A DNA stretch of 64,000 bases from a virus. Positions 40,344 through 54,760 of this stretch are shown here, piece by piece. The DNA is taken from the IMG/VR virus record IMGVR_UViG_3300017971_007885, positions 36,483-100,482 of that record. One strand, given 5' to 3'. Position 1 is the stretch's first letter. Each line of letters starts with the position of its first letter. Both the position numbers and the translations under genes were made by a program. A model generated the notes under the pieces. The model was given only the letters and a program-made list of their open reading frames with translations, was not told where the DNA came from and made no database searches.

Positions 40344-40399
40344 ATTGTACCATGAGAAAGAAGCCAGATCCTGACGTGAATCTGACTTCTACCCTGACA
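40344..40399 (-). promoter_or_regulatory. TGTCAG-repeat promoter, copy A
   Basis: On the minus strand, extended -10 TGGTACAAT (hexamer at 40344-40349) is preceded by three repeats of the TGTCAG type; plus-strand starts are at 40371, 40382 and 40394, with 11 and 12 bp pitch. The first two are degenerate (GTCAG core). It reads into the LPD29 gene. Confidence 0.75.
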
Positions 40400-40834
40400 C
40401 TAGTCCCAGTCCAGATGTACCGGATCGGACCACTGACCATCTACCTGCTCATGCCACGTGGTATTTTCAATGGTTGGCTCTTTGCTCGTGTCCATCCAAC
40501 CCCGCTTCACCGTGGCTTCTTGATGAAACGTGGCTTCTGCCAACACCATCGGAGCCAGCACCCGGACCACGCTTATGGTCACTTCTTTGGTGCTCAAGGC
40601 TTCCGCCACATCGGCAAACACCGCTTCCAGGTCACACATTATCATTCCCTCTTTCTGACTATCTGGGAGCCGCCGCCACTGGGTGGATTGACGCCCACCG
40701 ATGCGATCGGCTACTTCTCCATCAATTTCTTCGATCTCGTACTCTTCTCGATCCTTCAGGACCGGCACGCTTGGATCATCACTCAGAGCAAAAAACACTC
40801 TTGGATCGTCCCTCAAAACTGCGATCTTTAACAC
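40400..40834 (-). CDS. Unknown acidic protein behind a structured leader
   Basis: 144 residues from a GTG at 40834. The first half is acidic (LKDREEYEIEEIDGEVADRI), and the second half contains MCDLEAVFADVAEALSTKEV. An internal AGAGGGA plus ATG at about 40642 could produce a shorter second product. It is the only gene read from promoter copy B, behind a 180-base leader with strong pairing potential. No family is recognised. Confidence 0.55.
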   Translation of the reverse strand: MLKIAVLRDDPRVFFALSDDPSVPVLKDREEYEIEEIDGEVADRIGGRQSTQWRRLPDSQKEGMIMCDLEAVFADVAEALSTKEVTISVVRVLAPMVLAEATFHQEATVKRGWMDTSKEPTIENTTWHEQVDGQWSDPVHLDWD

Positions 40835-40849
40835 TTTACTTACTTTCTA

Positions 40850-41017
40850 GCCCAGAACTGGGCAAACATTGTATTTGTGCAAACTTGGAGCCAATTTGTT
40901 CCGCTTGTCGCTTTTGGCTTGTCCCTAGCTATGACACTTTGGGCCGGACGTTATCCGTTTTGCAAGTCACGCTGTCAGTTGCGCGTGTGGCTCCAAGTTT
41001 GCGTTTCGTTTTCCTTC
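40850..41017 (-). ncRNA. Structured 5' leader or small RNA downstream of promoter copy B
   Basis: Between promoter copy B and the GTG at 40834 the transcript has a perfect 15 bp inverted repeat, 40879-40893 with 40988-41002 (core AAACTTGGAGCCA), closing a 94-base loop that includes a CCGGA-TCCGG type hairpin. A second hairpin, GCCCA-gaac-TGGGC (40850-40863), lies next to the start codon. No frame of note is found inside. A riboregulatory leader or a stable RNA both fit; no known class is recognised. Confidence 0.55.
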
Positions 41018-41023
41018 AACTCC

Positions 41024-41067
41024 AGTATACCAGATCTGAAGACTAGTTTCCTGACATGAAGCTGACA
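41024..41067 (-). promoter_or_regulatory. TGTCAG-repeat promoter, copy B
   Basis: Minus-strand TGGTATACT (-10 hexamer at 41024-41029) with two perfect TGTCAG repeats 11 bp apart (plus-strand starts 41051 and 41062). It drives the structured leader and the 40400-40834 gene. Confidence 0.85.
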
Positions 41068-41070
41068 GTT

Positions 41071-41517
41071 TCAGAATTCTTGGATAGTATTGCAGTATGG
41101 ACACCGGCCTACAACCCGGTAACTGGTAGAGCCAGGGCCGTCCGGCTCTTCTTTTTCAAAGGCGCTCATGATCATCGCGTGGCCGCAAAGGGAGCAGGTC
41201 ACCGGCACGGCATCCAGGTGGGACCGGAATTGTGCCCGAGTGTAACCGGCTTCCTGGAAGCAAAGAGCCACGATCGCCCGTTTCTCGAACCCCGGATCGG
41301 CATAGTAGATTATATGGTCGGCTACAGTGGCCGGGTCAGCGGCCAGGCGATCCACTTCGCATTCCACCATGTGCCGGGCACCAAAAAAGCCGGTCATCCA
41401 GGAGCTAAATTGATCGCTCTGGGTCCAGGGGCAATATGGCACGCCACCTTCCGCTGTCGCTGTGTTGTTGCTTTTCAGGCCGTGCTTGAATCCCTCAAAG
41501 ATTGCGCTTGGGTACAT
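41071..41517 (-). CDS. Zinc-ribbon protein of unknown function
   Basis: 148 residues; ATG at 41517 with GGAG nine bases upstream (a GTG at 41526 is too close to it). The C-terminus has CSLCGHAMI...GRCPYCNTI, a four-cysteine zinc ribbon. The earlier part (WTQSDQFSSWMTGFFGARHM) recalls small phage proteins that carry a Zn ribbon for nucleic-acid binding. Last gene of the unit that starts at promoter copy C. Confidence 0.6.
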   Translation of the reverse strand: MYPSAIFEGFKHGLKSNNTATAEGGVPYCPWTQSDQFSSWMTGFFGARHMVECEVDRLAADPATVADHIIYYADPGFEKRAIVALCFQEAGYTRAQFRSHLDAVPVTCSLCGHAMIMSAFEKEEPDGPGSTSYRVVGRCPYCNTIQEF

Positions 41518-41971
41518 AGTCTTCACGCTCCATTCCGGTCATACAGGCCACAAAGGTACCATGTTCATCCAAAGTTGTGTACAGATCGCCGTATACCTGG
41601 ACGTTGATCGTTGGCCAACCGGTCACATTATCATTGCCCCATGGCTTATGATCGGCATGGTAGTAAAACAGATCCCCATCATATTGAGACACAACCGGCA
41701 CATACCATCCCGGACCACGCCAGTGCACAAAAGCTGTACTCCCTTGGTGTTCCTGGAGCAGAGTGGCCAGGGTTTGATCTTGCTCTTTTTGGCACTCGGA
41801 GCAGTAGCCGCCCCCAGTCAAAGGCTTGTCACATCCGGCGCAATGGCTCTTCAGCCACTGGATCGCTTCTTGATCCGGCAAAATGTCTTCCCGAGTAGCA
41901 CACGATACACAAACACATTCCCCTTCTATCGTACGCTCAATTGGTCGTAAGCAGTACCGGCACCTATACAT
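41495..41971 (-). CDS. Double zinc-ribbon protein
   Basis: 158 residues; the ATG at 41971 overlaps a TTGATAAT box (minus-strand view of the genomic motif). Cysteine pairs CRYC, CVSC, CAGC and CSEC in the first 65 residues form two zinc ribbons. The C-terminal half (AFVHWRGPGWYVPVVSQYDG, TINVQVYGDLYTT) is a beta-rich domain. Unknown function, probably nucleic-acid- or protein-binding. Confidence 0.6.
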   Translation of the reverse strand: MYRCRYCLRPIERTIEGECVCVSCATREDILPDQEAIQWLKSHCAGCDKPLTGGGYCSECQKEQDQTLATLLQEHQGSTAFVHWRGPGWYVPVVSQYDGDLFYYHADHKPWGNDNVTGWPTINVQVYGDLYTTLDEHGTFVACMTGMEREDYVPKRNL

Positions 41972-41973
41972 TA

Positions 41974-42168
41974 TCAATCATCCTTCTGGTTGATCTCATC
42001 CAAGATCCTTTGAACGTCTTGTGATGTTGTCCCCGTTGCCTTCCAACCGCTTGGGGTTTGGTTTACACCGTTGCTTACAACTTCATCATTCATGCTCACT
42101 AAGCCTTTCAGCACAGCGGCAATGATCGCAATTGCAAAAAGTCCACCACCAATAATAACACCACCCAT
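41974..42168 (-). CDS. Small single-pass membrane protein
   Basis: 64 residues from the ATG at 42168, with AAAGGAAG upstream. It has a hydrophobic N-terminal helix (GGVIIGGGLFAIAIIAAVLKGL) and a polar C-terminus (TTSQDVQRILDEINQKDD). This is typical of small phage membrane proteins such as superinfection-exclusion factors, but that is only an analogy. Confidence 0.6.
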   Translation of the reverse strand: MGGVIIGGGLFAIAIIAAVLKGLVSMNDEVVSNGVNQTPSGWKATGTTSQDVQRILDEINQKDD

Positions 42169-42170
42169 GA

Positions 42171-42686
42171 TTACACTTCCTTTCTTCGTCTTTGTCTGAC
42201 CATCACGGCCAGGAACTGGTAACAACTCCCATAACAATGCAATCCCCTAAGATCCACATCCGCTTCCGGATTCTCTGAAACGATCTTGGCCAGGGCGCAA
42301 GCTTTGCAGTGCGCACCGGTTACTTGCTTTTGTTTGCCGTCTTCACGCTCTACAATGAAGCCGCTCCCGATGTCGATCGCGTACCACTTCAAGAGTGCCG
42401 GCTTCATTGCCACAGTATCATTCATGAGCCCTTCGTCAATCGCTTTATTGATTGCGGCTCGTTGGCACAATTGGCATAATTCCCCATTCGCCCAAGGATC
42501 TTCATGTGACAAATTCACATCCACTGGAAAGTGCTTCCCAAAAAGACCACAAAAAGAAGTCCCTTGCTCCCAAAGATGATACTTGGTGCCATAGTGTGGG
42601 AATCCCCATCTTTTGCCAAGAGCATGCGCCGCTTCTCTTGCTCTTTGTGGCGTGATCTGGTTTCCTGTACAATCTCTCATTGCCAT
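42171..42686 (-). CDS. Cysteine-rich protein of unknown function
   Basis: 171 residues; AAAGGCGG four bases before the ATG. Cysteines are grouped as ELCQLCQRA, HCKACALA and LHCYGSCY, suggesting two metal sites. The centre has FIVEREDGKQKQVTGAHC. The ATTATCAA copy at 42711 lies upstream of the ribosome binding site rather than on the start. No family is recognised. Confidence 0.55.
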   Translation of the reverse strand: MAMRDCTGNQITPQRAREAAHALGKRWGFPHYGTKYHLWEQGTSFCGLFGKHFPVDVNLSHEDPWANGELCQLCQRAAINKAIDEGLMNDTVAMKPALLKWYAIDIGSGFIVEREDGKQKQVTGAHCKACALAKIVSENPEADVDLRGLHCYGSCYQFLAVMVRQRRRKEV

Positions 42687-42708
42687 AGTACCGCCTTTGA
42701 ATTATCAA

Positions 42709-43044
42709 TCACTTGATCCGCCGTCCCTTCAATTGCGCCGCTAGGTCTTTAGCCGACATGCTAAAGGGTTCAACCCCCACGATGCGAGAGGCCCATGCTA
42801 TGATCTGACCACTCATAAGGTGATAGAACTGTCCCCAACCGTGGGCCAGGTGTTGGCCAAGGAACTCGTGGCCATCTTCCGCCGTTTCAACCCGGCAGAT
42901 CCATCCGCCTTCAGCACCGGCATAGCCGTGGATCTTTGCCCATCGTTTGGCAAGGTATCTTTGGGCTTGGCTTGATGATTTGTGGGGTCGGTTGCCAGTG
43001 TGCACCGTTTTGTGCCCGTATTGCTCCGGTCTAATCCGTGGCAT
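42709..43044 (-). CDS. Small basic protein of unknown function
   Basis: 111 residues; start ATG 43044 within GGATTGATAATG. The N-terminal half is basic (HTGNRPHKSSSQAQRYLAKR), consistent with nucleic-acid binding. Later GGWICRVETAEDGHEFLG and VEPFSMSAKDLAAQLKGR. No motif of an enzyme. Confidence 0.5.
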   Translation of the reverse strand: MPRIRPEQYGHKTVHTGNRPHKSSSQAQRYLAKRWAKIHGYAGAEGGWICRVETAEDGHEFLGQHLAHGWGQFYHLMSGQIIAWASRIVGVEPFSMSAKDLAAQLKGRRIK

Positions 43045-43053
43045 TATCAATCC

Positions 43054-43545
43054 TCACTTTCTTGTGGTCATCCCAAGGGTTTCTTGTGCGTCTGGGTGAG
43101 CACTCATGTTAGCCAGGCACCGCTTGCAAGTTACCCGGTACCCTTTCATCGTGTGGATCCCGCTCTTCCTTCTATGCCCGGTTGTGCACGTTTCCGCCCC
43201 ACAAAGGGTATACATGCTCGTGCGGCATTCTCTTTCAATTACACGAACAACATGGATTGCCTTGCCCCGGCCAACTTGGCCAGGAACCCAAGAATACCTT
43301 GTGATTTTCTCCAAACTCTCCATTTCGTGATCAAAATAGGATTGCCCGCCAGGCACTGACCAATGCCCCCGGAGCCCAAAAACTTGGGTTTGGAACTCTT
43401 CCAGAGCCTGGAGCCGGATCAACGCCCACCGAAGATCCCATGCGCTCACGTTTACATGTTCACTGGAACCCTTGCCGTCTATGGCCTTCTGAAGCCGGGC
43501 CAACATCTGGGGTTGGGGCTTACCATCATATGTCATGTATGCCAT
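43054..43545 (-). CDS. Unknown protein with C-terminal Cys cluster
   Basis: 163 residues from ATG 43545, with AAAGGA nine bases upstream; two further ATG codons precede it. Helical N-terminus (QMLARLQKAIDGKGSSEHVN, DLRWALIRLQALEEF), and a C-terminal CGAETCTTGH...TCKRCLANM cluster that could bind zinc. The ATTATCAT variant overlaps the start. Confidence 0.5.
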   Translation of the reverse strand: MAYMTYDGKPQPQMLARLQKAIDGKGSSEHVNVSAWDLRWALIRLQALEEFQTQVFGLRGHWSVPGGQSYFDHEMESLEKITRYSWVPGQVGRGKAIHVVRVIERECRTSMYTLCGAETCTTGHRRKSGIHTMKGYRVTCKRCLANMSAHPDAQETLGMTTRK

Positions 43546-43550
43546 TATCA

Positions 43551-43817
43551 TCATTCCTTTCTGAGTTTCAGCGAAAGTGTCATGTTGCCATAGCGGAATC
43601 CAAACCATTCCAAAATATCAACTGCTCGAACAGTTAAGCTTTTTCGCCTACCGGCTCTATTAAAAGTGAATTCGAATGTGTCAATTTGTATCCCCCCGCC
43701 ATAGACAGGTTCAATTGATGAAGAGATATAAGCATCACCATTAACGGTGATCTCACCATCGCCAACCACAATAAAGCCCTCTTCTGTCAGTTTTTCAATT
43801 TTCTTTTGTAGATCCAA
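43551..43817 (-). CDS. Small beta-rich protein
   Basis: 88 residues from a TTG start at 43817, with AAAGGA nine bases upstream. After a short helix (LQKKIEKLTEEG) the sequence alternates strands (FIVVGDGEITVNGDAYISSS, IQIDTFEFTFNRAGRRKSLT). Unknown function. Confidence 0.5.
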   Translation of the reverse strand: MDLQKKIEKLTEEGFIVVGDGEITVNGDAYISSSIEPVYGGGIQIDTFEFTFNRAGRRKSLTVRAVDILEWFGFRYGNMTLSLKLRKE

Positions 43818-43832
43818 GATTGCATTCCTTTT

Positions 43833-44114
43833 CTAGAAGGGCAATGCCCCTTCAGGGCACCCATTCAGGTGCTCAAAACCAACTAACTGCCACTTGGACC
43901 AGGCGGACCACTGGGCAACCATCCCCCTCATCGTGTAGGTGCGGGTGCGCTCAAAGTGTACTCGGACCATCTGAGGCACCATGTATTGCCCGCAAGTCAT
44001 GCAGGTGTGTCCCATGGTCGTGGTCCTGGTTTCACTCATTTGTTGCTTGCACTCTTCCGGGCGGGGTTCGTACCAGTCTCGACCATCCGCTGTGTAAAAT
44101 TCACGATCCCACAT
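43833..44114 (-). CDS. Small CxxC protein of unknown function
   Basis: 93 residues; ATG 44114 inside a TTGATAATG box. Contains CMTCGQYMVP, one CxxC pair, and a tryptophan-rich C-terminus (WSAWSKWQLVGFEHLNG). The 5' end overlaps the stop of the upstream gene by 14 bases. No family is recognised. Confidence 0.5.
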   Translation of the reverse strand: MWDREFYTADGRDWYEPRPEECKQQMSETRTTTMGHTCMTCGQYMVPQMVRVHFERTRTYTMRGMVAQWSAWSKWQLVGFEHLNGCPEGALPF

Positions 44115-44322
44115 TATCAACGTTCGTTTCTAGATCGTTTCGATCCAAAAGTATGCCTTTATATGGGCCTTCGGCTACTTCCAAATACTTTTCAGAAGCC
44201 GGGGCACCGGGCCATGCATGAAAAGTCTTCAGATTGAATGTTGTCCCTTTGGGCACAAAAACAGCACTAAGGCCCAAAATGCAAAGTTCGTATTTTGCTA
44301 TACCGGTAAACACTTTGGACAT
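44101..44322 (-). CDS. Small protein of unknown function
   Basis: 73 residues from ATG 44322, preceded by AGAAGGGG. Beta-type sequence (AKYELCILGLSAVFVPKGTT, YKGILLDRNDLETNVDN). Its start carries a degraded version of the genomic box (ATATCAAT). Nothing more can be said. Confidence 0.45.
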   Translation of the reverse strand: MSKVFTGIAKYELCILGLSAVFVPKGTTFNLKTFHAWPGAPASEKYLEVAEGPYKGILLDRNDLETNVDNVGS

Positions 44323-44335
44323 ATCAATACCCCTT

Positions 44336-44551
44336 CTAGCGCCAGTCGCCTTCATAGCTCAACACTGCCCGGCACTTTGAACATTGGTATGATCCAACGC
44401 CAGGCCGGTAGTGTGCTTCAGATCCACACTTGCCGCATGGAAGTATTCCCCTTGATTCAGCATCTTGTGCTTCCAATTCTGCAAGTGCACGCTCTCCTTT
44501 GCTTTCATCCGCGTGTACTTGTCGCCAACGATCTGCATGTATGCTTCCCAT
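44336..44551 (-). CDS. Small zinc-ribbon protein
   Basis: 71 residues; ATG 44551 within a TTGATAATG box, GGAAAGG upstream. CGKCGSEAHY...YQCSKCRAV is a classic four-cysteine ribbon at residues 39-62, preceded by an acidic helix (GERALAELEAQDAESRG). Possibly a nucleic-acid- or polymerase-binding peptide. Confidence 0.6.
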   Translation of the reverse strand: MGSIHADRWRQVHADESKGERALAELEAQDAESRGILPCGKCGSEAHYRPGVGSYQCSKCRAVLSYEGDWR

Positions 44552-44571
44552 TATCAATACCTTTCCGTTGT

Positions 44572-44594
44572 GGGGAGCCCTTGCCGGGCTCCCC
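44572..44594 (-). promoter_or_regulatory. Intergenic hairpin without T-run
   Basis: GGGGAGCCC (44572-44580) pairs with GGGCTCCCC (44586-44594). It lies between the stop of the 44604-45800 gene and the next start. Without a T-run it is more likely an mRNA stabiliser or processing site than a terminator. Confidence 0.6.
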
Positions 44595-44603
44595 TTTGCT
44601 TGA

Positions 44604-45800
44604 CTAGTCTTCTACCGCTTCAAACTTGCACCGGGTCAAAATCGTTTGCTTGGTGCCCCGGTATTCATCGTGAGCCTTGACCGTGGCCTTGCCGCTCACA
44701 ACCGTTTCCCCATCGTACCAGTCAAAAAAGTTTCCAGTCTTCCATACCAATATGTTGCCATCTTTGTCCAGAAACTTGTACAGATAGGTTGCGCCATACA
44801 TCGAATCAAAGCTTGTGGAAAAAACCAAGGTCAAGTTGTCGAATTCTTGACGTTTTTTGATGGTGCCAACCCACTCGGAAGGCTTGGTGTTGGCCTCTTC
44901 CGCCTTGCGCTCTATCTCTTTTTTGTAGGCTATGATGGCAGAAGCGACGATCCCGGATTGCTTGATAGTTATGTATTCATCACTGAAGGAAGTGGCCAGG
45001 TTCCAAAAGTAATCGTTGCGCTCTTCCCGGTTAGCCACGTCTTCACGCACCCACTCAACCACTTTTTTGGCCAACAAGCGATCCGCCCCAATAACTTCCA
45101 GTTTGGCCGGGCTATACTTGCTTGCAAAAAACGAACTTAGAGCGATATCCGCCGTGGCCGGGCCTTGCTCTTCACCCCGGTACACTGCACCCCGGCTTGT
45201 CCATCCGCACAAGCGAACGGCGGCGGCTACGTGGTAAAGGAAACCTTCCAGATTCATGTAGTCGCTTCCGCCACTGTAACCCATCGGATCCCATTCAACT
45301 TCTCGGGCCTCTTCGTAAAGATCAAGGATGTGTTGCGCCCACTTGGCCAATGCTTCCGGGTTGGCGTGACCGGTAAAATCCTTCAAGCAGGTGCTTCCAA
45401 CTTGGACAAATTCCCCTGCTTCACTCGTAACCACGTAGGTGTAATTACGTTCCCGGTTGGTTTTGCAGTGTTCACACCACGGCTCAACCGTGCGAAACTT
45501 GGCCGGAAGGTCTTCTTCCAGAAGCGAGTACATCACGTTCCCGTTAGGCGTGTGCTCCAGCTTGGCCGCCAGTTTCCAACCGTTCAATACTGGGGCTTCA
45601 CCGACCACTTCAACATCAAAGACCTTGACCGGCACTTTAGTGCTATGGCCGCTTTCATCGGTCTTGTGCCAAATTTCAAACCGTTCCGCCAAGATCGTCA
45701 TGGTGATCTCGGGTGTGTCCAACTTGGCCGCCCGCTTGTTTAGTTTGGCGATCTTGCTTGCCAGTTTTGCGTAATTGACTTCTGGGATAATTGCCTTCAC
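44604..45800 (-). CDS. Conserved phage protein with CEHC and VGSTCLKDF motifs
   Basis: 398 residues from GTG 45800, with TGGAG eight bases upstream. The protein has CEHCKTNRERNYTYVV followed by EFVQVGSTCLKDFTGH, a pair of Cys motifs that recur in a widespread but uncharacterised phage family and could bind zinc. The N-terminal region (ILAERFEIWHK, VPVKVFDVEVV) and the C-terminal beta region (TLVFSTSFDSMYGATYLYKF, DEYRGTKQTILTRC) flank a helical centre. First gene after promoter copy C. Function unknown. Confidence 0.7.
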   Translation of the reverse strand: MKAIIPEVNYAKLASKIAKLNKRAAKLDTPEITMTILAERFEIWHKTDESGHSTKVPVKVFDVEVVGEAPVLNGWKLAAKLEHTPNGNVMYSLLEEDLPAKFRTVEPWCEHCKTNRERNYTYVVTSEAGEFVQVGSTCLKDFTGHANPEALAKWAQHILDLYEEAREVEWDPMGYSGGSDYMNLEGFLYHVAAAVRLCGWTSRGAVYRGEEQGPATADIALSSFFASKYSPAKLEVIGADRLLAKKVVEWVREDVANREERNDYFWNLATSFSDEYITIKQSGIVASAIIAYKKEIERKAEEANTKPSEWVGTIKKRQEFDNLTLVFSTSFDSMYGATYLYKFLDKDGNILVWKTGNFFDWYDGETVVSGKATVKAHDEYRGTKQTILTRCKFEAVED

Positions 45801-45851
45801 TTGTTTGCTCCATTCTAAAATCTGGTTTGTTTGCTGTTCAACTTCAGCTAT

Positions 45852-45906
45852 AGTATACCAGATCCTGGAATAGTTTCCTGACATGAAGCTGACATTTTTC
45901 CCGACA
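45852..45906 (-). promoter_or_regulatory. TGTCAG-repeat promoter, copy C
   Basis: Minus-strand TGGTATACT (-10 hexamer at 45852-45857). Perfect TGTCAG repeats at plus-strand 45878 and 45889 (11 bp pitch) and a third, imperfect one at 45901 (12 bp). It starts the long unit of small genes down to 41071. Confidence 0.85.
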
Positions 45907-45910
45907 ATGC

Positions 45911-45936
45911 ACAAAAGGGAGCCGGTTGGCTCCCTT
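45911..45936 (-). terminator. Intrinsic terminator on the minus strand
   Basis: AAGGGAGCC (45915-45923) pairs with GGCTCCCTT (45928-45936) around a 4-base loop; in the minus direction the stem is followed by TTTTG. It ends the unit coming from promoter copy D just before promoter copy C. Confidence 0.75.
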
Positions 45937-45954
45937 CCATATTATCAATGCTCC

Positions 45955-46398
45955 CTAGTTTGGAAGCCTCATGGCCTCTTGGTGCAGGTCTGAAAGCATC
46001 CGCTTCAAGATGTACAACTCGGAATGTGAAAGGCACTCGTGGGCCGCTATCATAAGCGTGGACCTGAGAATACGAATTTGATCCAAGAATTCGCCCAAGT
46101 TGGCCAATTCGTAAACCCGGCACTTGCCACTTGCTTCATCTCGGAAGCCGATAAAACCACCGTGATCGCTGCATTCGCCGTCCATGTCGGCAAACTGCAA
46201 GAACGTGCGATCCGATACCTTGATCGCGTATTTGCCTGTGTAAGCAAAGCGGATCACACTGGGGCATACCACGTCACTAACTGACAACTCGGAAGACTCA
46301 AGCTTGGTCATCGGAGCCCGCCCCACGTTCGTGGGCTTGCCAAGCGAATCGGTGACATATACGCCAAGGATATCCCTGCTCATGTAGAACTCTAACAT
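45955..46398 (-). CDS. Unknown protein, last gene of the copy D unit
   Basis: 147 residues; ATG 46398 within GGATTGATAATG. A beta-rich N-terminus (DILGVYVTDSLGKPTNVGRA, FAYTGKYAIKVSDRTFLQF) and a helical C-terminus (LILRSTLMIAAHECLSHSEL-like region, LKRMLSDLHQEAMRL). No recognised family. Confidence 0.55.
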   Translation of the reverse strand: MLEFYMSRDILGVYVTDSLGKPTNVGRAPMTKLESSELSVSDVVCPSVIRFAYTGKYAIKVSDRTFLQFADMDGECSDHGGFIGFRDEASGKCRVYELANLGEFLDQIRILRSTLMIAAHECLSHSELYILKRMLSDLHQEAMRLPN

Positions 46399-46400
46399 TA

Positions 46401-46781
46401 TCAATCCTTCCCTTTTATGTGGGGTTGCGCCCCAACCGCAACCAATAAACTCATGGCCTTGATCACTTGCTCATGGGCCGTTTGAACGTTTTGTGGGCCG
46501 CCAGTCGCTTGATACAACAGATCATAGGCTTGCTGAAGAGCCACTTGGCGCAATTCCCGGATCATGTTGGCCGGATCGTTCCCTATGCCATGGGCATACT
46601 CCAATTCATGACCACAGATCCACATGGCCAGGGCGTGAAGGGCATCCAACTGCTCTTCATCCAGATCGAACAGATCGGCCAGGGCCGCCCGATTGCCCAG
46701 ATCGTGGGCCGGGTGGATCTTGATGATGCTATCAAAGATAGCACGGCACATCAAGATATCCGTTTCATTCATTTTGGCCAT
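46401..46781 (-). CDS. Helical protein of unknown function
   Basis: 126 residues; ATG 46781 within GGATTGATAATG. Almost all helical (ETDILMCRAIFDSIIKIHPA, LDALHALAMWICGHELEYAH, QAYDLLYQATGGPQN). No motif found. Its stop lies three bases before the next start. Confidence 0.5.
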   Translation of the reverse strand: MAKMNETDILMCRAIFDSIIKIHPAHDLGNRAALADLFDLDEEQLDALHALAMWICGHELEYAHGIGNDPANMIRELRQVALQQAYDLLYQATGGPQNVQTAHEQVIKAMSLLVAVGAQPHIKGKD

Positions 46782-46783
46782 TA

Positions 46784-47089
46784 TCAATCCCTCTTTTTCT
46801 CGGGCAAGTGCCCATAGGTGTGATCCCATACCAACTTTGGGACCATGATTCCGTAAACTTGGCCGTTTTCCGTTCGCCAAAGGGTGTACTCGTGCACCGG
46901 CTTGGCCAACTTGGCATAGGAGCCGCCGATCTTTTGGTGGGCGTGCGTTCTGATTTTGTGCTCTTTGTGCTCCCACGTATGGCGCTCCAAGAATTCGCCC
47001 AAGGTCATGATCCCGCAATAGTAATGTGACACTTGGGCAAGAGCTTTTTGGAGCCGTCCGGCATCTCGGGCGGATATCGCTTTGATCAT
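46784..47089 (-). CDS. Small protein of unknown function
   Basis: 101 residues from ATG 47089, GGATGGG six bases upstream, overlapping the preceding gene by ATGA. Contains LGEFLERHTWEHKEHKIRTH, His-rich, and a beta segment VHEYTLWRTENGQVYGIMVP. No family is recognised. Confidence 0.5.
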   Translation of the reverse strand: MIKAISARDAGRLQKALAQVSHYYCGIMTLGEFLERHTWEHKEHKIRTHAHQKIGGSYAKLAKPVHEYTLWRTENGQVYGIMVPKLVWDHTYGHLPEKKRD

Positions 47090-47493
47090 TTTCCCATCCT
47101 TTTCAGTTTGGCCAGGCACCGGGTGCAGGTCACCGGTTGATCTGGACTTGGCCGCCATTCTGACCAACCCGCCGATCTCGGACCTGGAGCCGAACCACAA
47201 ACGGGCTTCCACTGGGGATAATACCCTTCTCGGGTGTTATTCTTTTTCAACAGCCGGGCGTGGAACAAAGTACCACCGTCCCGTTCCGCACCGTTTGCGC
47301 ACCGTCCGGCTTTGGCGCTCACAGTGTAGCCACGATCAAGATCCACTTGGCACCGGGCACAAAGGCCGTTTTCGTTTAGATCCGCCCCGTAAGTGCGGCA
47401 CATGGAACACGGTGGGCGCTCTGGAGCCGGATCCCGCTTGGGCATATCCGGGCAATCATCTAACATCTTCTTGAACTGCTCCGCAAAAGTCAT
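47086..47493 (-). CDS. Zinc-ribbon-containing protein
   Basis: 135 residues from ATG 47493. Cysteines CSMCRTYGADLNENGLCARC form one ribbon (about residues 29-48), and CTRCLAKLKRMGK at the C-terminus gives another CxxC. Probably a small metal-stabilised binding protein. Translationally coupled to both neighbours. Confidence 0.55.
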   Translation of the reverse strand: MTFAEQFKKMLDDCPDMPKRDPAPERPPCSMCRTYGADLNENGLCARCQVDLDRGYTVSAKAGRCANGAERDGGTLFHARLLKKNNTREGYYPQWKPVCGSAPGPRSAGWSEWRPSPDQPVTCTRCLAKLKRMGK

Positions 47494-47494
47494 C

Positions 47495-47803
47495 TTATAC
47501 GCTCTGGTTTGCAATCCGCAAGCACTGTTGATAGGCCGCCGCCGGGCCGCTTACCCATCGCACATGGTACCACTTGCCGTTTACCGTGCTCTGGACCTCT
47601 TCCGCCATGCCCATTCCCTTGTGAAACCGGGTGCGCATCCGTGGGCCAACTCTCGGGTGCTCTTGACCACATTTTGCGCAAGTGTCGATTGTGGTGCTTG
47701 CCACATCGGTGGGCTGGAGCCGGACATTGTTCCGATCGTATTCTGTACATCCGCACCGGGTGCATACTTTCTTGGGTAAAGTAATCATTCGGGTGTCTTT
47801 CAC
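47495..47803 (-). CDS. Small zinc-ribbon protein, first gene after promoter copy D
   Basis: 102 residues from GTG 47803, AGGAG eight bases upstream. CTRCGCTEYD...TCAKCGQEHP is a zinc ribbon at about residues 13-47, followed by a beta segment (EEVQSTVNGKWYHVRWVSGP). Function unknown. Confidence 0.55.
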   Translation of the reverse strand: MKDTRMITLPKKVCTRCGCTEYDRNNVRLQPTDVASTTIDTCAKCGQEHPRVGPRMRTRFHKGMGMAEEVQSTVNGKWYHVRWVSGPAAAYQQCLRIANQSV

Positions 47804-47833
47804 TTGACTGCTCCTGTCTGGATTTGGTTTGGT

Positions 47834-47855
47834 GGGGCGGCCATTTGGCCGCCCC
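47834..47855 (-). promoter_or_regulatory. Hairpin at the 5' end of the copy D transcript
   Basis: GGGGCGGCC (47834-47842) pairs with GGCCGCCCC (47847-47855) around ATTT. It starts about 8 bases after the expected transcription start, so it may protect the mRNA 5' end. Confidence 0.55.
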
Positions 47856-47869
47856 TCAACTTCAATATC

Positions 47870-47925
47870 ATTGTACCATGAATAGAAACCCCGATCCTGA
47901 CATGAAGCTGACATTTTTTCTGACA
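47870..47925 (-). promoter_or_regulatory. TGTCAG-repeat promoter, copy D
   Basis: Minus-strand TGGTACAAT (-10 hexamer at 47870-47875) with three perfect TGTCAG repeats, plus-strand starts at 47897, 47908 and 47920 (11 and 12 bp pitch). It ends one base short of the stop codon of the 47927 gene. Confidence 0.85.
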
Positions 47926-47926
47926 C

Positions 47927-48745
47927 TCAGAGCCTGGAGAAGGCCCATGTCAATTCGTAGCTGTAAAGCTTGTCTTCCGGCAAGGGCTCTTCCGTGACGA
48001 TCCACGTATGGGGCACTGAATCCGATCTTTTTTGGTGCTCCAAGATGCAAGCTTGATCTAGGCTTGCCCACGTCAAAGAAAACGGACGGCTGAAGGAGCC
48101 ATACACGTGCCTAAAATCACCAGCTTGGGCTTCTGGGTGCTTATACTCGAATTCCAACGGTGAAAGCAGGTGCCGGCCGTTTTGGCGCAATTGCGCAACG
48201 TGATCCAGGCCGCAAAGCTTGAAGAGTCGCATAATCCGATCGAATTCATTGGCCGCAAAAGCACCTTTGCCCTTCCACTCGTGGGCACTGGAGCAGTCCA
48301 GGATCATGTAGCTGTAGGTGTCTTTATCAAAAGCCAATAGCAAGGCATCGTTCACTTCCCACCCACGGCGGTTTACTTCCATAACATCTTGCTCAACCTG
48401 GAGCACAAAACGCTTATCCAGATGCATGTATTGCCTTGCATCCAACACGATCATCTTGGGCCGGACCAACCAACGGCGGCCATTGGCCTCTTCCACTCGC
48501 CAATTCTTGGGGAAACTTGGCAGATCGGCCATTGCTTCCAAAAACTCGGCTTCCCGAGTGGGGCAAACAAAGTCAGCATTCATGTATGGGCGGCCATCCA
48601 AAGGTTTCCAGATCTCCCCTTGCCATTCCCACACGCCCCCGGTATGCACGCCATCCGGAAGGCCATCCACGCGCACCGATGCTTCCAGCTTGACAGCATC
48701 TTGGTGGGGTTGGATATCTCTCGTTGAAAGTGGTAACTCGGACAT
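47927..48745 (-). CDS. Unknown conserved phage protein
   Basis: 272 residues; ATG 48745 within GGATTGATAATG. Conserved-looking stretches are GVWEWQGEIWKPLDGRPYMN, RRWLVRPKMIVL, EVNRRGWEVNDALLLAFDKD and YMILDCSSAHEWKGKG. The order (glycine-poor N-lobe, then acidic/DCS motif) faintly recalls degenerate kinase-like phage proteins, but no catalytic loop can be pointed out. I leave it unassigned. Confidence 0.6.
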   Translation of the reverse strand: MSELPLSTRDIQPHQDAVKLEASVRVDGLPDGVHTGGVWEWQGEIWKPLDGRPYMNADFVCPTREAEFLEAMADLPSFPKNWRVEEANGRRWLVRPKMIVLDARQYMHLDKRFVLQVEQDVMEVNRRGWEVNDALLLAFDKDTYSYMILDCSSAHEWKGKGAFAANEFDRIMRLFKLCGLDHVAQLRQNGRHLLSPLEFEYKHPEAQAGDFRHVYGSFSRPFSLTWASLDQACILEHQKRSDSVPHTWIVTEEPLPEDKLYSYELTWAFSRL

Positions 48746-48759
48746 TATCAATCCTTCTA

Positions 48760-48781
48760 GGGGCGGCACTCGGGCCGCCCC
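48760..48781 (-). promoter_or_regulatory. Intergenic hairpin without T-run
   Basis: GGGGCGGC (48760-48767) pairs with GCCGCCCC (48774-48781), between the 48796 and 47927 genes. Same architecture as the other GC hairpins of this block, with a different sequence. Confidence 0.55.
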
Positions 48782-48795
48782 GGTTACAGTGTGGG

Positions 48796-49401
48796 TTAGC
48801 ATGCCCACATGGTTACACTAAAAATCCCGACAAATTCAGCATTCAGACCAATAAGCACCCTTGCATCATAGTCCAACTTGAAGCCCACGGCATTGGTTGC
48901 CATACTGACCACATCCGCTTCCGAGATACCCGCCGCAACCACGGTGTAGCCCTCATTGGCACCGATCCCCCTGACTTCCCAAACTTTGATCTGGGGTTTC
49001 TCTGTGCACACGAAAAGCTTGCCGGGCTTGCCAACAGCGGCGCTCAAAAAAAAGATTTCGCCGTCAAAGTCAAAGCTTGCAAGGGCGATCTCCATTGCAC
49101 GGCGCATCACTGTCCAGCAGTGCCGGGTTATCAATCGCCCATTACACGTGCCTTGATGTGGCGCTTTCCCTAACAACTGACGCTTGTTGAGACTGCTATA
49201 GTTTCCATAGGTCACCGTGTTGCCCACTTCATCCATTGCCTTGCCCAGATCCCCAAAAGCCACAAACGGGGCGGACATTAAGCTTACAACCAATTGACAA
49301 CGGTGCTCAATCCGCACGGAAAACGTGCACTTGGGGAATTCTCGCTTCAATTGTGCTCGTGTTGCTTTGCCCGCCGCCGCCAACGTGATTTGCTTGTCCA
49401 T
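48796..49401 (-). CDS. Second LPD29-like protein
   Basis: 201 residues, GGATAGAGCA before the ATG. The N-terminus (GKATRAQLKREFPKCTFSVR) resembles the LPD29 start of the 38895-40283 protein (KLLKANYPGTKFSVI). The C-terminal half (YTVVAAGISEADVVSMATNA, DARVLIGLNAEFVG) is unrecognised. The two may be diverged paralogues. It belongs to the unit of promoter copy E. Confidence 0.55.
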   Translation of the reverse strand: MDKQITLAAAGKATRAQLKREFPKCTFSVRIEHRCQLVVSLMSAPFVAFGDLGKAMDEVGNTVTYGNYSSLNKRQLLGKAPHQGTCNGRLITRHCWTVMRRAMEIALASFDFDGEIFFLSAAVGKPGKLFVCTEKPQIKVWEVRGIGANEGYTVVAAGISEADVVSMATNAVGFKLDYDARVLIGLNAEFVGIFSVTMWAC

Positions 49402-49417
49402 TGCTCTATCCCATCTA

Positions 49418-49438
49418 GGGGGCGGCTTGGCCGCCCCC
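49418..49438 (-). promoter_or_regulatory. Intergenic hairpin without T-run
   Basis: GGGGGCGG (49418-49425) pairs with CCGCCCCC (49431-49438), between the 49450 and 48796 genes. Confidence 0.55.
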
Positions 49439-49449
49439 GAGTACCCAAT

Positions 49450-49818
49450 TTACCCGGCGATCTGGTAAGGCCCAACGTGGTGGACGTTCAGAATGGGCTT
49501 GCCACAAAATAGTTCAAATTCGACTATCCAGGAGCCTTGTGGTACCTCAGCCTGCCGGCCGATCTGGTGCGATTGCTTGGGGCCGCCAGCGTGAAGGCTC
49601 ATCTGGGATTGCATTCGAAGCGTAAAGGGCTCCGCGTTTTGTCGGTACCCGTGATAGGTTGTGGCCTCACTGAGCATAAGCTTCCAGCCGGGTGATTGTA
49701 TGTACAACTCGCACATTCTTGTGCGGTACCGTTTTTGGTAGGCCAAAACTTTTTCAGCCACTGGAGCCGGAAGCGCCTTGATTTGAGCCTTTTTGAGATG
49801 CTGACCTTGTGCTAACAT
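49450..49818 (-). CDS. First gene of the minus-strand block, unknown
   Basis: 122 residues, AAAGGATAACC before the ATG at 49818. Helical basic N-terminus (HLKKAQIKALPAPVAEKVLA) followed by mixed sequence with SWIVEFELFCGKPILNVHHV. It is read from promoter copy E. No family is recognised. Confidence 0.55.
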   Translation of the reverse strand: MLAQGQHLKKAQIKALPAPVAEKVLAYQKRYRTRMCELYIQSPGWKLMLSEATTYHGYRQNAEPFTLRMQSQMSLHAGGPKQSHQIGRQAEVPQGSWIVEFELFCGKPILNVHHVGPYQIAG

Positions 49819-49892: not shown

Positions 49893-49935
49893 AGTATACC
49901 AGATCCTGGAATAGTTTCCTGACATGAAGCTGACA
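49893..49935 (-). promoter_or_regulatory. TGTCAG-repeat promoter, copy E
   Basis: Minus-strand TGGTATACT (-10 hexamer at 49893-49898) with perfect TGTCAG repeats at plus-strand 49919 and 49930, 11 bp apart. It faces away from the plus-strand promoter at 50104. Confidence 0.85.
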
Positions 49936-50103: not shown

Positions 50104-50132
50104 TTGACTTGGAGCTTGTTTCATGATAGAAT
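50104..50132 (+). promoter_or_regulatory. Sigma-70-like promoter TTGACT-17-TAGAAT
   Basis: TTGACT (50104-50109), a 17 bp spacer, TAGAAT (50127-50132): almost identical in design to the promoter of the RHH/FtsK operon. The expected start near 50139 is followed by 165 bases without a gene and then a terminator. Confidence 0.8.
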
Positions 50133-50138
50133 AGAAGA

Positions 50139-50308
50139 CGTAAGAGGAACGCAAAAAATTAGGCGCAAGCACAGACATGCGCCGGGCCTTGTGGAAGGGG
50201 TCAATCACACGGAGATAAAGCACCTTTTTGGGTGGATCTTTGGTCGTATCCTTTGCCGTGTGAGGCGACTTCCATAGACCACAGATTCACCCAAGAGGGT
50301 GTTTTTTT
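50139..50308 (+). ncRNA. Probable structured small RNA of about 165 nt
   Basis: It has its own promoter and a terminator but no credible reading frame. Pairing: GGCGCA (50162-50167) with TGCGCC (50178-50183); TTGTGGAAG (50189-50197) with CTTCCATAG (50269-50277, two G-U pairs); inside it TCACACGG (50205-50212) with CCGTGTGA (50256-50263); inside that CACC (50221-50224) with GGTG (50231-50234). The nested long arm resembles a regulatory or polymerase- or protein-binding RNA. I cannot match it to a known family. It could also serve as the leader of the 50326 gene if the terminator is regulated. Confidence 0.65.
50288..50308 (+). terminator. Intrinsic terminator after the small RNA
   Basis: CACCC (50288-50292) pairs with GGGTG (50297-50301), followed by TTTTTTA. 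A short stem, so attenuation rather than full stop is possible. Confidence 0.65.
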
Positions 50309-50616: not shown

Positions 50617-50617
50617 T

Positions 50618-50951: not shown

Positions 50952-51293
50952 GTGATTATCAATCAAAATCCAAAGTTTGGCCATGCGGACGTGTACCCAT
51001 GGGCCAACTCGACAGAAGAGGCGCGGCGGCAAAAACGGATCACCGTTACGATAGAAGGGCTTGTGCAATACGATAGCCGATACTGGACAGAACAAGAATT
51101 CATCGAATACATAAGTACGCTTTCTCGGGGCTTTGCAGAAGCTTTTACTCTTGCGGTTGAAGCAAAAGCCAGGTCAGAAGCACACAAGAAAAAGGTCCGG
51201 ACACTATTGGCCGCTATGGAAACGCAAAAGGGATCAATGGCGAAAAATGATCCAAAATTTTGCGGGCTAGAATCGGGTACCAATGAAACCTAA
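50952..51293 (+). CDS. Small protein of unknown function
   Basis: 113 residues from GTG 50952, AGAAGGGA upstream; an ATTATCAA copy covers codons 2-4. ITVTIEGLVQYDSRYWTEQE suggests one beta hairpin and helix, followed by a basic helix (KARSEAHKKKVRTLLAAME). Overlaps the methyltransferase gene by 11 bases. Confidence 0.5.
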   Translation: MIINQNPKFGHADVYPWANSTEEARRQKRITVTIEGLVQYDSRYWTEQEFIEYISTLSRGFAEAFTLAVEAKARSEAHKKKVRTLLAAMETQKGSMAKNDPKFCGLESGTNET

Positions 51294-51915
51294 AAAGTTC
51301 CTTTTTAAGGCGGAAAACTACGAGTATTATCAAGATGGCAAGTGGGCCAGGGCTGTAGAGATCCCTATCTTCCGGCGCATCTTGGCACGGGAATTTGCCC
51401 GAGATGACCGTTATATTCCGATCGTTCTGGAAGTCGGCAATGTTATGGCGCATCATACCAACTATAGACCTGGAGAGCATTACGATGTGTTGGACCTATA
51501 CGAGCATGAGCCGGGCGTGATCAATAAAGACGCAACGTTTTGGCGGACAGGTGCGAATAACTACAGCTTGATCATATCCGTTTCGACATTTGAACACATT
51601 GGCCAGGCCAGGTATGAAGGCACGGATCAGCTATTCAGACCGATGGCTGCCGCTCTGAACCTCTTCACTTGGTGTTTAGCCTCACATGGCAAGATGATTT
51701 TTTCAATCCCTCTCAAATATCGCCGGGCCGGTGATATCATGGTATGGAACGCTTTCCCAGAGCAATGGATCCGGGTCAACTTTTTGCGCAATTGTGGCAA
51801 TGGGGTTTGGGAGCAGGTAAGCAGAAAAGAGGCACGAAGGATCGGATACTATGGCAAGCCGTATCCTGGAGCGAATGGGTTGGCTATAGTTCAGGTCCAG
51901 AAACCGCCACTATAA
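51283..51915 (+). CDS. SAM-dependent methyltransferase-like protein
   Basis: 210 residues. VLEVGNVMAHH takes the place of the SAM glycine motif, followed by YDVLDLYEHEPGVIN with the acidic ribose ligand and YSLIISVSTFEHIGQ as motif III. These features fit class I methyltransferases seen with surface glycan genes. The first motif is unusual (EVGNV rather than ExGxG), so activity is likely but not certain. Its stop overlaps the next ATG (TAATG). Confidence 0.7.
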   Translation: MKPKKFLFKAENYEYYQDGKWARAVEIPIFRRILAREFARDDRYIPIVLEVGNVMAHHTNYRPGEHYDVLDLYEHEPGVINKDATFWRTGANNYSLIISVSTFEHIGQARYEGTDQLFRPMAAALNLFTWCLASHGKMIFSIPLKYRRAGDIMVWNAFPEQWIRVNFLRNCGNGVWEQVSRKEARRIGYYGKPYPGANGLAIVQVQKPPL

Positions 51916-52118
51916 TGGAAAATTACGAACTTGACGAAAACGCCAATATTATGATGGCCAGGGCGCTCCGGTTGGCGGTGATTCAGAGCCAGTATAATGC
52001 CGGGCGTTTAACACTCGAACAGGCACAAGAGCTATTGCGGGGGCCGTTGTCCCCGAGAAAGGGCAACGTGTATGATGATTCCGATCAATTGAGAGTGAAA
52101 AGCGGGGCAGGTGCGTGA
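51915..52118 (+). CDS. Small helical protein
   Basis: 67 residues starting at a TAATG overlap. ENANIMMARALRLAVIQSQY then GRLTLEQAQELLRGPLSPRK: one or two helices and a basic end. The 3' end overlaps the tRNA-like element at 52102. No family is recognised. Confidence 0.5.
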   Translation: MENYELDENANIMMARALRLAVIQSQYNAGRLTLEQAQELLRGPLSPRKGNVYDDSDQLRVKSGAGA

Positions 52119-52164
52119 AGGGCTCAGTACCCGGATCGGGTGGGTTCGATTCCCACTACTCGCT
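52102..52164 (+). ncRNA. tRNA-like element with intact T-arm, degenerate 5' half
   Basis: GTGGG-TTCGATT-CCCAC (52140-52156) is a textbook tRNA T-arm with the universal TTCGA loop, followed by TACTCGC (52157-52163), which fits an acceptor strand. GCGGGGC (52102-52108) can pair with only five of these seven. The 31 bases between lack a proper D-arm; GGG-CTCAGTA-CCC (52120-52132) is at best a 3 bp anticodon stem. It may be a decayed tRNA, a tRNA mimic, or a phage attachment core copied from a host tRNA 3' end. No integrase is in the window. Confidence 0.5.
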
Positions 52165-52760
52165 ATTATCAAAGTCAAAAGCAGGGCACGACCAGGCAAT
52201 GGAGTGGCGAAGTCCTAGATCCAACCACCGTGTAACCTGTACTTGACGCCAGGATATAAACAACTAGGCCAACCTAAAGCGGCACTAATCGAAAAACCTG
52301 GAGTGCCGCCATGGTCCAAGGGGAACGTAAGGCGCTATGCCGTTTACGGTGTTGTGCGATCCCTACCTGATAACGATCCTTGCGGTCGTTTCCCGTTCCG
52401 ATGTACCAGACAAGCCCACCACATGGGGCGTGGCTACCGGAAGCCAGGGGTACGGGTTTAGCATCCAAGTTGCCGAAAGGCAACCGGTTATCTAGGAACC
52501 AGGGCCGGAAGGATGTCTTTTTGAGCGTGGCTGATTGTGGATGTGCCAGGCTATCTAGTTGGGCGTCAAGATCACGGATTATCAATGCCGTGGCCGGGTT
52601 TAATAGGGAGAGATCCGTCAAGTGCCGATCAAATTTGCCACATTGTGGCAGTCATGAGAATGCTTTCAGCATTGTCCTACGGACAGTAGAATGCTAACTA
52701 ACATTCTGACTCTTGATCCATCAAAGAGCAAAAAGTGGTACACTTTGATCCACATTTGGG
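52165..52760 (+). other. Noncoding stretch with many hairpins
   Basis: About 600 bases without a convincing gene. Perfect hairpins: GCGGCACT (52279-52286) with AGTGCCGC (52302-52309); GTTGCC-gaaa-GGCAAC (52469-52484) with a GNRA tetraloop; then four in a row, TGCCAC/GTGGCA (52636-52650), AATGC/GCATT (52659-52673), GTCC/GGAC (52674-52684) and AGAATG/CATTCT (52688-52707). The GNRA loop and the density of stems suggest one or more structured RNAs. Two ATTATCAA copies (52165, 52578) also lie here. I recognise no RNA family. Confidence 0.5.
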
Positions 52761-52769
52761 AGATCGAGA

Positions 52770-52798
52770 TTGCACTAAGGTCAAATTTGGTATAAAAT
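52770..52798 (+). promoter_or_regulatory. Probable promoter for the 52887 gene
   Basis: TTGCAC (52770-52775) and an extended -10, TGGTATAAA (52788-52796), or TAAAAT at 52793-52798 with a 17 bp spacer. It marks the end of the noncoding stretch. Confidence 0.55.
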
Positions 52799-52886
52799 GA
52801 TCCAGATTGCTTACTTACTAACCAGATCGTATGGACGATGAGCAAATCTATTGTGTGTATACGATTGGTCAGCCGGTAAGATCAAC

Positions 52887-53474
52887 GTGCTACTAGAGCA
52901 GTGGCGTGAATTGCGCCTAGATCGGTTTGAAGCAGTGGGCGTTTTGGAGCTATTATCATTCAGCCGGATCAAAAAACAAACGATTGAAGCGATTGTGAGC
53001 AAAGCCAAGGCTTTGGGCTATGACCTGGAATCGGAAGAAGTGGGAAGCCGTCAATCTGAAACGGGCCATTGGCTGATTATGCCCAAAATTTTGCACAAGT
53101 GGTCGGTTGTCTATGAAGACGGTTACCCGGTGGATAAAGAGCGGGCAACGTTGGCATTTATGCACGTGCGCCAGAATCACAAGGTTGCATTCACAAACGT
53201 GCAATCTCGTGGCCTCTTTAATCCCACCATCCCGAAGCCGGAGCCCGATGGTTACGAGATCGTTATGTTGGAGTGGTCGCTTGTAGCCGTTGTTTCTCCG
53301 GAAGGTGCGGTGACCTGGGGGAAAACGGCCCTTGATGATCTTGTAACTCGGGTGCTTCATGGGAGCATAGAAGAGAACAAAATCAGCCGGGCGCTCCAGA
53401 GCCAGATCAATGATAGATTATCAATCCGTTGGTTGTCTTTGGATGGACAGGAAGCAAAGAACAGAGAGGATTAG
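52887..53474 (+). CDS. Unknown protein
   Basis: 195 residues if started at GTG 52887; TTG 52850 is an alternative. An overlapping 21-codon frame with ATG at 52831 could be a leader peptide. N-terminal helices (LLEQWRELRLDRFEAVGVLE, KQTIEAIVSKAKALGY) precede a beta domain (KWSVVYEDGYPVDKERATLA, YEIVMLEWSLVAVVSPEGAV). No family is recognised. It is separated by only three bases from the ASCH-like gene. Confidence 0.55.
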   Translation: MLLEQWRELRLDRFEAVGVLELLSFSRIKKQTIEAIVSKAKALGYDLESEEVGSRQSETGHWLIMPKILHKWSVVYEDGYPVDKERATLAFMHVRQNHKVAFTNVQSRGLFNPTIPKPEPDGYEIVMLEWSLVAVVSPEGAVTWGKTALDDLVTRVLHGSIEENKISRALQSQINDRLSIRWLSLDGQEAKNRED

Positions 53475-53477
53475 AGC

Positions 53478-54044
53478 ATGAGAGGCATTTCCTTCAGTGC
53501 ACAGATGATTCAGGCGATCCAGAATACCCAATTTGACCGTTATCCTGCTTTGCCTTTGGACGATCCGGCCGGCGCGATCAAATGTCATACCCGGAGAAAT
53601 CACCAAGATGTACAATACCACGTTGGTCGGGTGTACTATGTCAATGAGCCTTTGATCCGGGTCAAGCACGGGGCCGTGTATGAAGCGGACGGTGTTCCGG
53701 TGACCGGTGAAGATGGTCGCCAGGTGGCATGGCAGTGGCAACGGGATCGGCTTCCAGCCATTTTTATGCCCAAATACGCCAGGCGGGAATGGGTGCGGAT
53801 TATCAAGGTCGAAAGGTCCACACTTGGGGCCATGGGCGTGATGGATCTCGTGTATGAAGGGCTCTTGGTGACCAATGACCAAATGAATACGCTTTACCCC
53901 GATGGTTGGGGGGCGGTGGAAGAGGAAAAAGAATACCGCCAGGAGTGGAAGAAGCTGTGGGAAACTCTGAACGGGCGGGGTACCTGCCAACCGAGTATGA
54001 AGGTGATGGCGTATCACTTTGAACGGGTGCACGAACCTAAATAA
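53478..54044 (+). CDS. ASCH-like domain protein
   Basis: 188 residues, AGAGGATTAGAGC before the ATG. The layout GISFSAQMIQAIQN, then KCHTRRNHQD, YHVGRVYYVNEPLI, the AIFMPKYARREWVRIIKVER region and LVYEG is that of phage ASCH-fold proteins, which begin with an (S)M(I/V)xA(I/L) helix and carry a TRR motif. ASCH domains bind RNA or modified nucleosides. The precise role here is unknown. Confidence 0.7.
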   Translation: MRGISFSAQMIQAIQNTQFDRYPALPLDDPAGAIKCHTRRNHQDVQYHVGRVYYVNEPLIRVKHGAVYEADGVPVTGEDGRQVAWQWQRDRLPAIFMPKYARREWVRIIKVERSTLGAMGVMDLVYEGLLVTNDQMNTLYPDGWGAVEEEKEYRQEWKKLWETLNGRGTCQPSMKVMAYHFERVHEPK

Positions 54045-54067
54045 TTGGCAACACGAAAGGGTGCTTC

Positions 54068-54760
54068 ATGAAAGTAGAAAATGAACTCGGGGTAATCGTC
54101 CAGTTTGCCCAACAGTGCAAAGAACAGGGATGGGAGATCGTTTCAATCCGATCCCAGTTTCCAGACGCGATTATCAAGCCTTTTGATGCCGATCGAGTAT
54201 ACTTGGTTGAATTCGAGTTTCTAGCTTCCGACTTTATGCTTCACAAACATGATCTGCGGGAATGTGACATAATTGTGTGTTGGTTGAATGACTGGGCGGA
54301 TTGCCCTATAACTATTTGGGGGTTATCTGAGGATGGCAGTTGGCCCAATGTGGAGAATGTTACGGATGAACAGATAGAGCTTTATCAGTTGAAACAGGAA
54401 AACACGGGTCTAAAAAAACAGATCAAAAAATTTGCATCGGGAATATTTGAGGGTGTGGACACTGAAGATCTCGATGCTGATAGTTTAACGTTTTCCGAGC
54501 TTCTTACTTTCAATGCCCTATCTAAAGCAAACGGTGGTATTTGTACTCGCTACAAGTTGAAGCATGAGCTTTGGGAAGATGCTGAAGTGGATAATAGCCG
54601 GTTAGAGAAAGTTATATCTAGATTGCGCAAAAAGTTGGTCGGATCGAACTTTTTCATATGTACGATCCGGGGCCGGGGATATAAATTGATCGAGAAATTG
54701 CCAGAAATGTCAGCTTCATGTCAGGAAACTATTCCGGAATCTGGTATACTAGAAGCGTAG
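54068..54760 (+). CDS. OmpR-type winged-helix regulator with nuclease-like N-terminal domain
   Basis: 230 residues. Residues about 145-212 form an OmpR/PhoB-type winged helix: ELLTFNALSKANGGICTRY, VDNSRLEKVISRLRKKLVGS and FICTIRGRGYKLIEK, the signature end of this fold. The first 90 residues (FPDAIIKPFDADRVYLVEFE then LRECDIIVCWLNDW) have the spacing of a PD-(D/E)xK nuclease-like core (D...EFE...CW), not of a REC domain. The last 18 codons double as promoter copy F. OmpR/PhoB proteins bind direct repeats with an 11 bp pitch, exactly the TGTCAG pattern here, so it is the leading candidate regulator. Confidence 0.75.
   Translation: MKVENELGVIVQFAQQCKEQGWEIVSIRSQFPDAIIKPFDADRVYLVEFEFLASDFMLHKHDLRECDIIVCWLNDWADCPITIWGLSEDGSWPNVENVTDEQIELYQLKQENTGLKKQIKKFASGIFEGVDTEDLDADSLTFSELLTFNALSKANGGICTRYKLKHELWEDAEVDNSRLEKVISRLRKKLVGSNFFICTIRGRGYKLIEKLPEMSASCQETIPESGILEA
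54708..54750 (+). promoter_or_regulatory. TGTCAG-repeat promoter, copy F, on the plus strand
   Basis: Perfect TGTCAG at 54708-54713 and 54719-54724 (11 bp pitch), a 20 bp gap, then TGGTATACT (-10 hexamer at 54745-54750). It is the only copy on the plus strand and overlaps the 3' end of the winged-helix gene. It drives the genes from 54806. Confidence 0.85.

Follow-up and report, generated by a model that had tools for sequence, protein, structure and literature searches.

Regulators of the OmpR/PhoB type sit as tandem dimers on direct repeats with a 7+4 or 6+5 bp layout, and TGTCA is the core of the PhoB site (PMC4832192, PMC3264566). The isolated DNA-binding domain of PhoB is active alone, and Arg 203, Thr 217 and the wing residue Arg 219 are conserved for DNA contact (PMC3264566). 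Direct repeats are also used by late regulators of Gram-positive phages, among them Ltr of Phi13, Alt of TP901-1, RinA and ArpU, which are proteins of about 130 amino acids that belong to other families and drive one late operon. In Phi13, four repeats lie in the 3' end of the Ltr activator gene and are needed for the late promoter (PMC13123087).

The promoter set described here resembles both systems. The features shared with the PhoB/OmpR regulators are a C-terminal winged helix (PF00486), head-to-tail repeats at 11-bp pitch, a TGTCA core, and sites that abut or replace the -35 element. With the Gram-positive late regulators it shares a candidate activator gene directly before a target promoter and direct repeats upstream of the -10 element. 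Unlike PhoB and OmpR, the candidate protein, P0001, has no receiver domain, carries an unrelated N-terminal domain and is encoded by a phage. In contrast to the late regulators, an OmpR-type protein is associated with six dispersed promoters in both directions. Our literature search found no direct precedent for a phage-encoded OmpR-type activator that acts on direct repeats.

The box promoters and the units they head

The stretch of DNA analyzed (the window, 64,000 bases) comprises bases 36,483-100,482 of a virus record with a total length of 100,482 bp, apparently from a tailed phage. The original prediction had placed TGTCAG-repeat promoters at six sites, five facing left and one facing right, and all six were found at those positions and on those strands:

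40344-40399, minus strand: box promoter, TGTCAG-N6-AGTCAG-N5-CGTCAG, N18, TGGTACAAT; heads 38895-40283 (LPD29 protein)
41024-41067, minus strand: box promoter, two repeats, N18, TGGTATACT; heads the structured RNA and gene 40400-40798
40875-41015, minus strand: structured RNA, closed by a stem of 15 bp, immediately behind the 41024 promoter
45852-45906, minus strand: box promoter, two repeats and a degenerate distal TGTCGG (pitch 12), N17, TGGTATACT; heads 44604-45800 and then about ten small genes down to 41071
47870-47925, minus strand: box promoter, three repeats (pitch 12, then 11), N18, TGGTACAAT; heads 47495-47803 to 45955
49893-49935, minus strand: box promoter, two repeats, N17, TGGTATACT; heads 49450-49818, 48796-49401 and 47927-48745
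54708-54750, plus strand: box promoter, N17, within the 3' end of gene 54068-54760; heads 54806-55219 and later genes

According to the gene calls, every gene of the minus-strand cluster (38,895-49,818) lies downstream of one of the five leftward copies, which would divide it into five units if the genes of each are co-transcribed, as we assume. The proposal that the boxes define a regulon of minus-strand genes therefore extends to the whole cluster.

A motif search of the full genome had been suggested, and we scanned both strands of the whole record with the composite pattern GTCAG-N6-GTCAG-N16..19-TGGTAYANT, allowing mismatches. The perfect form, GTCAG-N6-GTCAG-N17/18-TGGTAYANT, occurs at six sites. 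There were no sites with one to three mismatches, three with four and 25 with five, compared to Markov resampling expectations of 0 without mismatch, 0.2 at three mismatches, 3.0 at four and 23.5 at five. The set of six is closed and sharply set apart from the chance background.

The repeats are somewhat less uniform than the original prediction had them. The record contains five exact copies of TGTCAG-N5-TGTCAG, all of them in the window and confined to five of the six sites, and the TGTCA-N6-TGTCA core is likewise exact at five of six. The remaining site, 40344-40399, has the series TGTCAG / AGTCAG / CGTCAG, in which the GTCAG cores are kept with other first letters. The pitch of 11 bp holds between the two promoter-proximal repeats but is 12 to the third, distal repeat, which is present at 40344, at 47870, in the degenerate form at 45852, and at both sites of the relative described below. 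The distance from GTCAG to TGG is 17 at 45852, 49893 and 54708, and 18 at 40344, 41024 and 47870; the last TGTCAG thus lies 20-21 bp from the -10 hexamer, as had been claimed. If this hexamer is placed at -12/-7, the proximal repeat falls at about -38/-33, the next at -49/-44 and the distal one at about -61/-56. None of the six sites is among the 27 matches from a sigma70-like -35/-10 scan of the region, which requires a -35 element. Both the reading of these sites as promoters with an extended -10 and without a -35 and the likeness of the repeat layout to the OmpR/PhoB pattern are upheld.

One relative with boxes was found, L006 (IMGVR_UViG_3300017963_003073, 39,974 bp), which keeps counterparts of the 40344 promoter (about 6416-6470) and of the 41024 promoter (7737-7780) with invariant repeat cores. 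Besides L006, searches with the LPD29, phrog_2319 and FtsK-like proteins returned only the distant L038, in which exact TGTCA-N6-TGTCA is absent. The eight known copies, six in this record and two in L006, have in common GTCAG-N-TTCA-N-GTCAGGA, followed by 15-16 bases and TGnTAnAnT. None of the eight departs from TTCA in the spacer, GGA behind the last repeat, the repeat cores or the -10 letters, while the bases preceding each GTCAG vary. The presumed transcript start contains TGAAG in seven of the eight. Since several copies nearly duplicate one another over about 60-70 bp, the set grew by copying of a promoter cassette, and its members do not count as independent draws. What argues most strongly for function is that the set is closed, that the distance to the -10 is fixed and that L006 conserves the sites, rather than any chance probability.

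The structured RNA behind the 41024 promoter is 139 nt long with a folding energy of -47.7 kcal/mol (z = -5.05 against shuffles). It is 95% identical to its counterpart in L006, compared to 82% for the neighboring block, and nothing similar was found in Rfam or in known phages. Rfam and tRNA scans gave no matches. A non-coding stretch of about 700 bp at 52118-52850 (plus strand) has a tRNA T-arm-like end (GGTTCGATTCCCACTAC), and ARAGORN calls no tRNA there.

The same phage encodes an FtsK-like protein (36912-38204), and the 39-64 kb region contains DnaJ and NADAR proteins. The first third of the record (1-36600; L010/L011) encodes an actin-like protein, Dam and N6/N4 methylases, and PAPS-reductase-like and RMF-like proteins. 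The heptamer TTATCAA occurs 117 times on the plus strand of the 100,482 bp and its reverse complement not at all (order-2 expectations 13.6 and 5.0). Its median spacing is 740 bp, and it is found between genes as well as within them, whichever way they run (for example at 85, 41970 and 63906 of the window); in the relative L058 the count is 18 to 0. It is an oriented motif of a KOPS-, Chi-, packaging- or primase-like kind.

The candidate regulator P0001

No regulator had been named in the original prediction. A gene for an OmpR/PhoB-type winged-helix protein lies directly before the right-facing copy, and the rightward gene group that it ends has a promoter of a different kind at its head:

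54068-54760, plus strand: candidate activator P0001, 230 amino acids, PF00486 profile match
50104-50132, plus strand: sigma70-like promoter TTGACT-17-TAGAAT with TG and without a box (10-of-12 match, promoter scan)

P0001 consists of an N-terminal nuclease-fold-like domain (residues 5-87), a coiled-coil-like linker and a C-terminal OmpR/PhoB winged helix (residues 140-207). The winged helix matches PF00486 in Pfam at 1.7e-9 (38 bits against a cut-off of 26.2), the only such match in the record, and a PhoB-family regulator in the PDB with E = 0.004. The best NCBIfam matches, TctD (1.8e-6) and PhoB (5e-4), are both far below their cut-offs. In the alignment, the segment RLRKKL...TIRGRGY provides counterparts of PhoB Arg 203, Thr 217 and wing Arg 219. 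Profile scans found no receiver domain with a phospho-acceptor Asp in P0001.

In two Chloroflexota genomes, HNH-repeat proteins carry at their C-terminus a domain that matches residues 5-87 at 43 and 39%. The domain also occurs in two further Chloroflexota genomes and three viral contigs, two of which are identical there. Its invariants (PD ... EFEF ... S-F-H-H ... CD-IVCW-DW-CP) suggest a nuclease-like fold; a single-sequence structure prediction for P0001 was unusable (pLDDT 40). Searches of 2.9 million viral contigs, 50,697 phage records, 72,556 plasmids and up to 400 Chloroflexota genomes returned only single-domain matches to P0001 and no homologue that combines the two domains. Because the L006 record ends before the regulator region, its lack of PF00486 is uninformative as to whether regulator and boxes are inherited together.

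Among the 90 proteins encoded outside the structural region, scans with Pfam, NCBIfam and PHROG found one HTH_17 protein as the only other possible DNA-binding regulator, and no ArpU/RinA-type match. P0001 is the best regulator candidate found. With box 54708-54750 inside its 3' end, gene 54068-54760 stands before the promoter that it putatively controls, as in the Ltr-type systems. Given this layout, the binding of OmpR/PhoB proteins to direct repeats and the counterparts of the DNA-contact residues, we take P0001 as the likely activator of the six promoters, to whose boxes it would bind.

About 155 bp after the 50104 promoter there is a terminator-like hairpin with a T run (50288-50301), so that the P0001 gene may have a nearer promoter. 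The segment 50104-50301 (plus strand) possibly represents a short RNA or an attenuator.

Which protein acts at the boxes

We consider it probable that a phage-encoded activator, likely P0001, uses the six boxes as its operators, and that they serve an early-to-next-stage switch. The original prediction had instead looked to the pho box and to phosphate limitation. The boxes might accordingly be bound by host PhoB or another OmpR-type protein, the phage thereby tapping a host stress response while P0001 has some other role. The E. coli pho box does have TGTCA-N6-TGTCA as its core (PMC4832192). Exact matches turned up twice in 84,980 genomes, both times in Chloroflexota and once on a contig with a pstS-like gene, but two is about what chance would give (2.8 by our own estimate), and the pstS gene of that same genome has TTAAC-N6-TTAAC upstream and no TGTCA repeat. 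Across 30 Chloroflexota pstS upstream regions, with the host phylum tentative, TGTCA-N6-TGTCA was present in none and TTAAC-N6-TTAAC in four. A relaxed pattern gave 13 matches in 301 Chloroflexota genomes, compared to a chance estimate of our own of about 8, and the genes downstream were not pho genes; a control count of zero for this pattern was discounted, because the reversed gapped pattern used is possibly invalid. The spacing also differs. In E. coli phoA, the last TGTCA is about 11 bp from the -10 hexamer. Here it is 20-21 bp away, about one helical turn (some 10 bp) further, and the distal pitch is 12. With the missing receiver domain of P0001, these results leave the phosphate link unsupported. 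Since the phage encodes an OmpR-type protein of its own, with the gene beside one of the boxes, a switch for its own gene expression is a better reading than a phosphate-starvation response, and host control of the boxes appears improbable. The TTAAC direct repeats, at 11-bp pitch upstream of four Chloroflexota pstS genes (L085, L086, L095, L096), are a candidate Pho box of that phylum. Chloroflexota is the only host phylum hinted at for this phage, and the hint is tentative.

The binding protein could also be a phage activator of another kind, ArpU/RinA/Ltr-like or of the sigma-region-4 type, that the profile libraries miss. Several Clostridia-type phages (L012, L013, L032, L015, L016, L019-L021, L026, L029, L030) have an extended -10 preceded by two to four TGTCAG/TGTCAC repeats with a pitch of 10-11 bp; where the context was read (L012, L016, L026, L032), an ArpU/DUF1492-like gene, assigned to its family by reading the sequence, lies just upstream. 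Alt of TP901-1 and Ltr of Phi13 act via four direct repeats (PMC13123087). None of the 19 records tested among viral contigs that share the promoter pattern has PF00486. TGTCAG repeats beside ArpU/DUF1492-like genes mean that TGTCAG alone does not indicate an OmpR-type protein; the word is evidently used by unrelated activators. The Clostridia-type late promoters (L012, L016, L026, L032) nevertheless differ from the present set in having the ArpU/DUF1492-like gene at the site and a single promoter before HNH/terminase genes; in the L015/L016/L026 group, the distance between the -10 and its nearest repeat is shorter than here by about 10 bp. In the present record, no protein matched such families in Pfam or NCBIfam among the 40 of the 39-64 kb region, or in Pfam among the 50 of the first 36 kb, and the right-facing box is directly preceded by a gene of the OmpR type. 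We regard this explanation as unlikely, to about the same degree as control by the host. In two further phages (L024, L027), an extended -10 likewise follows two to four repeats (TGTCAG/TGTCAA/TGTCAC) with a pitch of 10-11 bp.

Least likely of all, in our judgment, is that the promoters run on the extended -10 alone and the repeats are operators for repression, with P0001 as a repressor or autoregulator. The element TGGTATACT is a strong extended -10 that is able to work without a -35, and the repeats end beside the -35 zone, where a bound protein could block. However, an absent -35 combined with repeats upstream of or over the -35 zone fits class II activation better, and five of the six promoters are far from the regulator gene.

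A proposed phage-encoded stage switch

For activation by P0001 we propose the following sequence of events. Expression of P0001 would come first and start from a promoter without a box. The protein would then bind the GTCAG repeats as a head-to-tail dimer, or as a trimer where a distal repeat exists, and recruit RNA polymerase to extended -10 promoters that have no -35. This would turn on the five leftward units, which together comprise the whole minus-strand cluster and the structured RNA, as well as the one rightward unit that directly follows the P0001 gene. That P0001 binds the boxes and activates rather than represses, and the timing of the switch, we infer. P0001 would work independently of phosphorylation; since the isolated DNA-binding domain of PhoB is active, the absence of a receiver is no obstacle. 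A more speculative version, to which we give little credence, is that the receiver has been replaced by a nuclease-fold domain that could sense DNA or a nucleic-acid ligand, yielding a stand-alone stage switch, and that duplication carried its operator-promoter cassette to six places, one of them the structured RNA's promoter.

If the proposal is correct, the operator, the promoter class and the probable activator of a phage regulon could all be read from sequence here, in a virus that has hardly any known relatives and whose host possibly belongs to the Chloroflexota. P0001 and the boxes form a directly testable regulator-operator pair. It would also mean that OmpR-type winged helices work as phage stage switches without phosphorylation.
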